Shown one piece after another: positions 30,596 through 45,398 of a stretch of 48,448 bases of DNA (position 1 is the stretch's first letter; each line of letters opens with the position of its first letter). Where the stretch lies: positions 1-48,448 of the forward strand of contig DXGR01000048.1 in assembly GCA_019113825.1 (NCBI GenBank), in the 5' to 3' direction. Under the pieces are notes generated by a model, which searched no databases, had not been told where the DNA came from, and saw nothing but the letters and a program-made list of their open reading frames with translations. The DNA is from Candidatus Stackebrandtia excrementipullorum. GTDB lineage: Bacteria; Actinomycetota; Actinomycetes; Mycobacteriales; Micromonosporaceae. The position numbers and the translations under genes are program-made.

Positions 30596-30601
30596 CATAC
30601 T
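30596..30601 (+). promoter_or_regulatory. -10-like box CATACT of the cimA leader
   Basis: CATACT is followed by 7 nt and then the GTG of the leader peptide, the same spacing as the leaderless TANNNT promoters elsewhere in this window. The first base deviates from TANNNT. Confidence 0.45.
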
Positions 30602-30608
30602 TCGCTGC

Positions 30609-30659
30609 GTGACCTTCACGCTCATTATTAGCGCCAGGCGCGCGGATAAGCCCAGCTAG
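30609..30659 (+). CDS. cimA leader peptide (attenuator)
   Basis: A 16-residue frame, VTFTLIISARRADKPS, has the consecutive codons CTC-ATT-ATT (Leu-Ile-Ile). ATT is uncommon in this genome. The ARR element recalls the ilvB leader peptide of Corynebacterium. It precedes cimA, whose pathway leads to isoleucine, and is followed by competing hairpins and a terminator. Ribosome stalling at the Ile codons when charged tRNA-Ile is low would favour read-through into cimA. Confidence 0.8.
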   Translation: MTFTLIISARRADKPS

Positions 30660-30679
30660 CGGCCCTGATCCGACGCGCC
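30637..30679 (+). promoter_or_regulatory. Leader hairpin between the leader peptide and the terminator
   Basis: GGCGCG-CGGAT (30637-30647) pairs with ATCCG-A-CGCGCC (30668-30679) with one bulged A. The 5' arm lies in the last codons of the leader peptide, so a translating ribosome would cover it. The 3' arm directly abuts the terminator. Confidence 0.6.
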
Positions 30680-30709
30680 AGACCTCTCGTGTTCACGAGA
30701 GGTCTTTTT
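30680..30709 (+). terminator. Attenuator terminator upstream of cimA
   Basis: AGACCTCTCGTG (30680-30691) pairs perfectly with CACGAGAGGTCT (30694-30705), followed by TTTT. It lies between the leader peptide and cimA. Confidence 0.9.
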
Positions 30710-30747
30710 CATGGCACGTGATCAATCCCACTCCCAGGAGAAATCCA

Positions 30748-32349
30748 GTGACATCGTCAGCCGACTTCCACGTCTACGACACCACGCTTCGCGACGGCGC
30801 CCAGCGTGAAGGCATCAGTTACTCCGTAGCCGACAAGCTCGCCGTCGCACGGCTGCTCGACGACCTCGGGGTCGACTACATCGAAGGCGGCTGGCCCGGG
30901 GCCCTCCCCAGCGACACCGAATTCTTCGCCAGGGCCGCCGACGAACTCACCCTCAAACACGCCGTGCTCGTCGCCTTCGGTGCGACCCGAAAAGCCGGCG
31001 TCGCCGTCGAAGACGACCCGCAGGTCGCCGCGCTCCTCGACTCCCGCGCGCCCGCATGGTGCCTGGTCGCCAAATCCGACATCCGGCACGTCCGGCGCGC
31101 TCTGCGCACCACACCCGACGAAAACCTCGCGATGGTGGCCGACACGGTTGCCTACGGCGTCTCCCAGGGTCGCAAAGTCTTTCTCGACTGCGAACACTTC
31201 TTCGACGGGTTCACCGCCGACCCCGACTACGCCACCACGGTGGTGCGTACCGCCTTCGAGGCGGGAGCCGACGTCGTCGTGTTGTGTGACACCAACGGCG
31301 GCATGCTGCCCTCCGACATCACCGAAACCGTCACCGCCCTACGAGAACGCCTGGGCGGACAACCGCGGCTGGGTGTCCACTGCCAAAACGACACCGGATG
31401 CGCGGTGGCCAACACCGTCACCGCCGTGCAGGCCGGTGTCATGCACATCCAGGGCACAGCGAACGGTTACGGGGAGCGCCCCGGTAATGCCGACCTGTTC
31501 GCGTGCCTGGGAAATCTCAGCTGCAAGCTGGGAATGAACGTCCTGCCCGACGGTGGCCTGGAGAAGCTCACAAGGACCTCCCACGCCATCGCCGAGATCG
31601 CGAACCTCGCCCCCGACGACCACCAGGCGTACGTGGGACACGCGGCATTCGCCCACAAGGCGGGCCTGCACGCGAGCGCGATCAAAGTGGATCCGCAGTT
31701 GTACAACCACATCGACCCCGCGGTCGTGGGCAACGACATGCGGATTCTCGTGACGGAGATGGCCGGTCGGGCCAGCATGGAACTCAAAGCCGCCGAACTG
31801 GGGCTTGACCTGGCCGGCCACCCGGACACGACCACGCGGGTCGTCAAACGCGTGAAGGACCTGGAGTCGCGTGGGTGGTCGTTCGAAGCGGCCGACGCGT
31901 CGTTCGAGCTCCTTGTTCGGGACGAACTGGCCGGCGGCCTCACCCGCCATTTCACTTTGGACAGTTATCGGGTCATCGTGGAACACCGAGCCGACGGCGA
32001 CGTCGTCAGCGAAGCCACCGTCAAGGTCAACGTCGGCCGACGTCGGGTCATCGCCACCGCCGAAGGCAACGGACCGGTCAACGCTCTCGACTCGGCGCTA
32101 CGCCAAGCTCTTCTGCAGCATTACCCGCAACTGGCCAGAGTCTCGTTGGCCGACTACAAGGTCCGCATCCTCGCGGGAAGCACCGGCACCGACGCCGTCA
32201 CACGTGTGCTCGTCGACACCACCGAAGGCAACCGGGACTGGACGACCGTGGGAGTCCACCAGAACGTCGTCGAAGCCAGCTGGCACGCTTTGGCCGAAGC
32301 GTTGAGCTACCACCTGACGCATGTCGGCGCGGCCATGGCGAACAGCTGA
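30748..32349 (+). CDS. cimA: (R)-citramalate synthase
   Basis: This 533-residue enzyme condenses pyruvate and acetyl-CoA to citramalate, the first step of the threonine-independent isoleucine route. The HMGL/DRE-TIM N-terminus reads YDTTLRDGAQREGISYSV; the metal-binding HxH-type region is in IQGTANGYGERPGNADL, and HAAFAHKAGLHASAI is a family hallmark. The C-terminal LeuA-type regulatory domain (residues about 405-525) should bind isoleucine. GTG 30748 has CAGGAG 7 nt upstream. A related 2-isopropylmalate synthase is less likely, given the sequence type (TIGR00977-like). The isoleucine-type attenuator supports the call. Confidence 0.93.
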   Translation: MTSSADFHVYDTTLRDGAQREGISYSVADKLAVARLLDDLGVDYIEGGWPGALPSDTEFFARAADELTLKHAVLVAFGATRKAGVAVEDDPQVAALLDSRAPAWCLVAKSDIRHVRRALRTTPDENLAMVADTVAYGVSQGRKVFLDCEHFFDGFTADPDYATTVVRTAFEAGADVVVLCDTNGGMLPSDITETVTALRERLGGQPRLGVHCQNDTGCAVANTVTAVQAGVMHIQGTANGYGERPGNADLFACLGNLSCKLGMNVLPDGGLEKLTRTSHAIAEIANLAPDDHQAYVGHAAFAHKAGLHASAIKVDPQLYNHIDPAVVGNDMRILVTEMAGRASMELKAAELGLDLAGHPDTTTRVVKRVKDLESRGWSFEAADASFELLVRDELAGGLTRHFTLDSYRVIVEHRADGDVVSEATVKVNVGRRRVIATAEGNGPVNALDSALRQALLQHYPQLARVSLADYKVRILAGSTGTDAVTRVLVDTTEGNRDWTTVGVHQNVVEASWHALAEALSYHLTHVGAAMANS

Positions 32350-45322: not shown

Positions 45323-45398
45323 GCTCCCGTCGTCTAGTGGCCTAGGACGCCGCCCTCTCAAGGCGGTAACGGCGGTTCGAATCCGCTCGGGAGTACCA
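45323..45398 (+). tRNA. tRNA-Glu (CTC anticodon)
   Basis: A full cloverleaf can be folded: acceptor GCTCCCG/CGGGAGT, D-arm region TCTAGTGGCCTAGGA, anticodon stem CCGCC/GGCGG with loop CTCTCAA (anticodon CTC), and T-arm GGCGG-TTCGAAT-CCGCT. Discriminator A45395 is followed by an encoded CCA (45396-45398). The acceptor ends in a G-U pair. Confidence 0.96.

Follow-up and report, generated by a model that had tools for sequence, protein, structure and literature searches.

The gene for citramalate synthase, cimA, of Candidatus Stackebrandtia excrementipullorum is preceded by a short ORF with consecutive isoleucine codons and by two adjoining hairpins, the second of them a terminator. This raises the question of whether translation of the short ORF governs transcription of cimA and, if so, how the position of the ribosome is communicated to the terminator. 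We examined the locus within a window of 48,448 nucleotides (the whole stretch of DNA analysed, contig DXGR01000048.1) together with its counterparts in related genomes. From sequence comparison and folding we regard it as highly probable that cimA is controlled here by a transcription attenuator that responds to isoleucine through the ribosome; the steric last step outlined below is a proposal.

The leader region of cimA

A first-pass annotation of the sequence had described a 16-residue leader containing CTC ATT ATT and a hairpin whose 5′ arm lies in the last codons of that leader. The former is read directly from the sequence (GTG ACC TTC ACG CTC ATT ATT AGC GCC AGG CGC GCG GAT AAG CCC AGC TAG) and the latter is borne out by folding (hairpin P1, Table 1). 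Its perfect 12-bp terminator with a U-run stands as a terminator with a T-run and, taken as an inverted repeat, as 12 bp with a 2-nt loop, although the fold gives an 11-bp stem with a 4-nt loop (hairpin P2). The promoter box described 7 nt before the GTG is present as CATACT at a spacing conserved among relatives, while the start of transcription at the leader GTG, and with it a leaderless transcript, is predicted from this −10 box. The fold of positions 30609-30714 has an energy of −46.4 kcal/mol, compared with −30.4 ± 3.2 kcal/mol in 200 shuffles (z = −4.97). The downstream protein matches NCBIfam TIGR00977 with 622.6 bits (cut-off 450), and the divergent neighbour of cimA is a ribose-phosphate diphosphokinase by protein-family match.

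Table 1 Features of the cimA leader element and other features of the window
Feature	Position	Strand	Basis and remarks
−10-like promoter box CATACT	30596..30601	+	Read from sequence; 7 nt upstream of leader GTG; leaderless transcript predicted
Leader ORF MTFTLIISARRADKPS-stop	30609..30659	+	GTG start 30609, 16 codons, TAG 30657-30659
Control codons CTC ATT ATT (Leu-Ile-Ile)	30621..30629	+	Read from sequence
Hairpin P1 (GGCGCGCGGAU...AUCCGACGCGCC)	30637..30679	+	Folding; 5′ arm within leader codons 10-13, stop codon in loop
Terminator hairpin P2	30680..30705	+	Folding; flush with P1 (0 nt)
Terminator T-run	30705..30709	+	Read from sequence
AGGAG, likely cimA ribosome-binding site	30736..30740	+	Read from sequence
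cimA, citramalate synthase, 533 aa	30748..32349	+	GTG start 30748; NCBIfam TIGR00977
tRNA gene	45323..45395		Rfam

Conservation of the element and its control codons

Two sets of cimA loci were compared: the best 80 of at least 592 candidate stretches from a CimA scan of genome contigs, and 30 loci from 101 genomes of the family of the window, its own locus included. An ORF with Ile codons followed by a terminator lies upstream of cimA in 105 of these 110 loci. The five loci lacking it (L033, L052, L055, L057 and L059) all come from assemblies titled as metagenomic, two of them titled Nanopelagicales. The sample is tilted towards near relatives, and the two sets overlap in some species; 103 sequences are distinct. 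By record title, bearers within the 80-locus set include Micromonospora, Actinoplanes, Glycomyces, Blastococcus, Amycolatopsis, Lentzea, Nakamurella, Thermobifida, Streptomyces and several uncultured actinobacteria. The 103 unique leaders are 8 to 18 residues long. When the nearest ATG or GTG to the Ile codons was taken as the start irrespective of any promoter, a −10-like NANNNT preceded it by 6 nt in a fraction of 0.18 of the 103 unique loci, by 7 nt in 0.49 and by 8 nt in 0.05, and by any other distance between 0 and 29 nt in 0.14 or less.

A covariance model (R1) was built from 67 cimA leaders, that of the window included. Within the genome of the window it matched a single site at E ≤ 1, this element, with 59 bits and an E-value of 3.3e-11 (best 150 of 2795 candidates scored). 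At E ≤ 0.01, genomes with a match number at least 137 of 197 within the class and at least 56 of 246 within the phylum, in searches whose filters lose weak matches. Sixty-five of the inspected matches lie upstream of cimA; the leader finder gave no leader in three of these (L234, L244 and L283) and an implausible one in four (L232, L238, L254 and L280). Four genomes of family f6 have neither an R1 match nor a full-length CimA. The cimA leader element is conserved far beyond chance.

The comparison of regions upstream of cimA that the first-pass annotation had proposed also bears out the control codons, an Ile-Ile pair being present in 101 of the 103 unique leaders; a lack of conserved leader frame or Ile codons in relatives, which that annotation had named as refuting its reading, was not observed. 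The pair is missing from L019 (Leu-Leu-Ile) and L054 (Ile-Lys-Ile); L112 and L120, later cimA loci found as R1 matches, likewise have no such pair. The 248 Ile codons of the unique leaders comprise 158 ATT and 90 ATC, compared with 52 ATT, 1548 ATC and 12 ATA among the 1612 Ile codons of the cimA stretches matched at these loci; the rows are related, and this is given as a count with no p-value. Taken together, conservation and the matching of codon to gene lend good support to a predicted Ile-responsive attenuator function at cimA.

The two hairpins are placed with little freedom. Among the 100 of 103 loci with resolved spacing, P1 starts 11 nt past the first base of the last Ile codon in 49, 8 nt past it in 33, 10 nt in 7, 7 nt in 7, 5 nt in 3 and 4 nt in 1, and it is separated from P2 by 0 nt in 92, by 1 nt in 7 and by 2 nt in 1. 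P1 itself ranges from 21 to 77 nt, with the leader stop codon at its base in 57 loci and inside it in 43. Of the 103 elements, 90 have a stem of at least 6 bp flush with the terminator (−1 to 2 nt), as do 4 of 45 further terminator-like sites in these loci; once the upstream bases were shuffled, 11 of the 103 elements had one. An alignment (A1) of 67 of the 76 non-redundant sequences, from which nine were left out (long-P1 Streptomyces leaders and L061), has an almost invariant P1 base and paired changes in P2. Over the whole alignment 29 cells were altered on both sides; shuffles averaged 6.4, none of 500 reached 29, and slid controls gave 0 to 7. Pairing of the inner part of P1 is also kept through changes, as counted on each sequence's own fold, a procedure that leans towards pairing.

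Ribosome position and the terminator

We folded the leaders with a ribosome in place, modelled as a masked stretch of 15 nt that starts with the P-site codon, a usual ribosome footprint. With the first Ile codon of the run in the A site, P1 formed with a probability of at least 0.8 in 93 of 100 loci; with the last Ile codon in the A site the median was 0.74 and 47 of 100 loci reached 0.8, and with the stop codon in the A site the probability was below 0.2 in 97 of 100. At the window's own locus (L081), for instance, it was 0.99 with the ribosome at the first Ile codon and 0.00 at the stop codon. The corresponding numbers of loci in which P2 reached 0.8 were 100, 100 and 95 of 100, and since P2 forms in all three ribosome states folding alone predicts no switch. 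In this model P1 behaves as a switch set by ribosome position, without competing with P2 for bases.

A co-transcriptional test agreed with this absence of competition. Upstream pairing of the P2 5′ arm (≥ 0.5) was found for 2 of 103 loci when the ribosome stood at the first Ile codon (median 0.05), for 14 of 103 when the best of all Ile positions was taken (median 0.27), and for 34 of 103 (≥ 0.5) when it stood at the stop codon (median 0.36). Among E. coli controls, the terminator 5′ arms of trp, thr and leu were sequestered at 0.60-0.82 in the stalled state versus 0.01-0.03 at the stop codon; his gave 0.63-0.64 stalled and 0.64 at the stop codon, with no discrimination. The higher upstream pairing of the P2 arm at the stop codon than at the first Ile codon has the wrong sign for a simple model. 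As this pairing opposes a simple reading, the direction of control is one that we infer from the pathway.

P1 was considered as a base-pairing antiterminator and rejected, having no overlap with P2 and the P2 arm being sequestered at the first Ile codon in only the 2 of 103 loci given above. The cimA element would thus resemble ribosome-mediated attenuation, yet appears from the models to work without the textbook antiterminator. Like the E. coli trp, thr and leu leaders it has end-product codons in the leader, a terminator and an upstream hairpin set by ribosome position, and ilvGMEDA is likewise a classical attenuator; it differs from trp, thr and leu in that the great majority of cimA loci have no antiterminator sharing bases with the terminator. 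The attenuator label of the first-pass annotation can therefore be kept for the functional reading, to which the Ile leader, the terminator and their conservation point, but not for the classical base-pairing mechanism, in view of a P1 without overlap and a P2 arm that mostly stays unsequestered under a stalled ribosome.

A classical attenuator whose antiterminator was missed by folding, for example through pairing between the P1 loop and the P2 3′ arm, is in our judgement improbable. Such pairing between the P1 loop and P2 has been described for the ilvB-II motif (PMC10272879), a C-rich P1 loop is common and P2 has a G-rich 3′ arm, and the P2 arm is sequestered at some Ile position in the 14 of 103 loci noted above. 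Across 87 loci (13 loops shorter than 5 nt were excluded) the loop-to-arm pairing averaged −7.17 kcal/mol compared with −6.55 kcal/mol for shuffled loops, slightly more favourable on average, and was better than the shuffle mean in 56. It reached p ≤ 0.05 in only 4 of the 87, however, as by chance, and on this count a P1 loop/P2 3′ arm pseudoknot was rejected; sequestration at the first Ile codon also falls far from the values of E. coli trp, thr and leu. Masking of the ribosome-binding site of cimA was rejected as a general mechanism because P2 ends anywhere from 13 to 334 nt (median 57) upstream of cimA.

We propose the following sequence of events. Transcription would begin at the leader GTG, and a ribosome would start on the leaderless end and translate the short leader. 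With ample charged tRNA-Ile it would reach the stop codon and cover the 5′ arm of P1, and P2 would halt RNA polymerase. When isoleucine is scarce the ribosome would stall at the two rare ATT codons with its leading edge at the base of P1; P1 would then remain folded and the polymerase read through into cimA. As P1 and P2 share no bases, the last step is proposed to be steric: P1, lying flush between the ribosome and P2, would hinder closure of the P2 base at the RNA exit of the polymerase. This steric blocking by a flush hairpin is our best guess.

A stalled ribosome might instead block P2 itself, with P1 doing nothing but looping out RNA. There is a precedent in E. coli pyrBI, a UTP-sensing attenuator in which a ribosome close to the polymerase prevents the terminator from forming without any competing hairpin; unlike the cimA element, pyrBI has neither a control codon nor a flush P1. 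Proximity of this kind would fit both joints being tight whatever the length of P1 (21 to 77 nt), with P1 mostly 8 or 11 nt from the last Ile codon and 0 nt from P2 in 92 of 100 loci, and it would fit the lack of base competition between the hairpins. A flush P1 is equally expected if P1 alone blocks P2, however, and we consider direct blocking by the ribosome rather unlikely. Against our main reading stands a proposal that hairpins clustered side by side cause termination (PMC8355165).

Similar leaders at other genes

The R1 matches are not confined to cimA. Besides the 65 cimA loci, the 133 inspected comprise 44 at ilvB, 4 at leuS, 3 at leuA and 1 at leuB, so that a model made from cimA leaders also finds ilvB leaders. 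Sixteen matched no reference gene; six of these are ilvA-like, L215 is leuB-like and L148 prephenate-dehydratase-like by eye, and inspection of L123, L128, L143, L152, L207, L209, L218 and L287 led to no gene assignment. In the genome of the window the leaders end AVVLT-stop at ilvB, VLLLT-stop at leuS and LLLGCRGGAR-stop at leuA, the whole leuA leader (L181) being MWHALLLGCRGGAR-stop. R1 scores its ilvB at 16.7 bits and its leuS at 17.9 bits; scores near 17 bits do not discriminate, as the E. coli thr leader reaches 17.5.

The branched-chain residues of the leader tails were tallied as L66/V71/I37 at ilvB (41 of 44 loci), L8/I1 at leuA (3 of 3), L12/I2/V1 at leuS (4 of 4) and I40/V9/L3 at the further cimA loci (15 of 18); a branched-chain run was a search criterion, so that the kind of residue alone is informative. 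The tally omits L149, L211 and L261 at ilvB, L254, L280 and L283 at cimA, the eight loci without a gene assignment, L148 and the six ilvA-like loci. Within one shared architecture the kind of control codon thus appears to follow the pathway of the downstream gene. The ilvB control runs contain GTA 34, CTT 23 and ATT 13 times beside CTC 42, GTC 19 and ATC 17; GTA, CTT and ATT are frequent here, though expected to be rare in GC-rich genomes.

The leader and P1 might merely tune pausing of ribosome and polymerase, the Ile codons being incidental. In favour of this, altering codons of the ilvB leader in S. coelicolor reportedly left regulation unaffected (PMC1262725, citing earlier work). The kind of control codon nevertheless switches with the gene in the same architecture, and the leader isoleucines are written ATT against the codon use of cimA, which makes a leader without amino-acid specificity very improbable in our estimation.

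The geometry, too, recurs. At ilvB, where 41 of 48 loci were resolved (at least four of the seven lost because the terminator finder allows no bulge), the P1-P2 gap is 0 nt in 32, 1 nt in 4, 2 nt in 2 and 3 nt in 2, one gap being left unassigned; it is 0 nt at 8 of 12 leuS loci and all 3 leuA loci. Five ilvB loci folded singly (L162, L157, L160, L163 and that of the window's genome) all have 0 nt. The terminator arm was paired upstream when the ribosome was stalled at 1 of 41 ilvB, 0 of 12 leuS and 0 of 3 leuA loci, and at the stop codon at 16 of 41, 2 of 12 and 0 of 3; in these layout counts G004 ilvB and G104 leuS are each included twice.

In family f82 the two-hairpin element precedes an ilvA-like gene in all six fetched matches (L271-L276), with Met-x-Ile or Met-Ile-Ile near the leader end. 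The one f82 ilvA-like protein scanned resembles threonine ammonia-lyases, below their curated cut-offs. In three genomes of the genus to which the window belongs, the top ilvA-like match (L296-L298) showed no such leader by eye. That the attenuator stands at ilvA in f82 through a missing cimA was rejected, all nine f82 genomes tested matching CimA (eight nearly full-length, one partial). By eye no Ile leader was found in six regions of about 470 nt each upstream of f82 cimA, nor did R1 match there. Upstream of f82 cimA, L288 and L290-L293 carry a different conserved block, CCGGCGGYGAACC..CGTCGCGCG..CCGG.., that includes a G+C-rich inverted repeat; this block has no Rfam match and in several loci follows a gene resembling a Crp/Fnr-type regulator by eye. 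Leaders with Ile runs also precede leuB (L146, VIIIE-stop) and the leuB-like gene (L215, by eye, VVIIR-stop); LeuB also serves the citramalate route. At L148 a leader ending RVLLIT-stop lies in the same layout upstream of the prephenate-dehydratase-like gene (by eye).

Searches against Rfam, whose families include the T-box and other curated leaders, gave no gathering match at the element of the window and, on nine relatives, nothing apart from tRNA; the best sub-threshold match had E = 1. The first-pass annotation knew of no described leader for cimA, and we likewise found none for this gene, whose locus tag in S. coelicolor we take to be SCO5529, in the searchable literature on cimA or citramalate leaders and actinobacterial branched-chain attenuation (subscription papers, e.g. 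Actinoplanes transcriptomes, lie outside it). The available portions of PMC1262725, PMC8079986, PMC10272879, PMC11857589, PMC13236596, PMC2965389 and PMC12452182 do not describe one, and cimA is absent from the eight S. lividans leader peptides in Table 4 of PMC8079986.

Leader-terminator elements at ilvB are known from Streptomyces, Mycobacterium and Corynebacterium (Seliverstov 2005, PMC1262725, portion available), and the S. lividans ilvL, MRTRILVLGKRVG-stop, is leaderless (PMC8079986, portion available). As at cimA, ilvB elements combine a leader with branched-chain codons, a hairpin near its last codons and a terminator, mostly with P1 and P2 flush; the cimA element differs in serving cimA (or an ilvA-like gene) and in control codons that are almost purely Ile. 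The ilvB-II motif of Corynebacterium shares the leader ORF, P1 and a terminator P2 with a U-run. Its antiterminator overlaps the terminator and pairing of the P1 loop to P2 is described (PMC10272879 and PMC11857589, portions available), whereas at cimA loop-terminator pairing is at chance level by the count at p ≤ 0.05 (4 of 87). The LEU element upstream of actinobacterial leuA also has a leader, here with a Leu run; it is described as a pseudoknot (PMC1262725) and in S. lividans as having no typical terminator (PMC8079986), in the portions available of both.

More tentatively, actinobacteria might possibly couple ribosome stalling to termination through a flush hairpin that blocks the terminator sterically without competing base pairs, with one scaffold whose codons are swapped to serve cimA and ilvA (Ile), ilvB (Val/Leu/Ile), and leuA and leuS (Leu). 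By the evidence presented here cimA, together with an ilvA-like gene in one family, would join the actinobacterial genes under leader-peptide control, through an element that is widespread among cimA-bearing actinobacteria and that no Rfam family and no searchable paper matched. If true, the flush-hairpin model would account for the component that attenuators of actinobacteria have seemed to be missing. Since a single layout, free of the textbook antiterminator, is used with exchanged codons at several genes, the old puzzle of how actinobacterial branched-chain leaders work, given the codon changes reported to be without effect in the ilvB leader of S. coelicolor, becomes testable.
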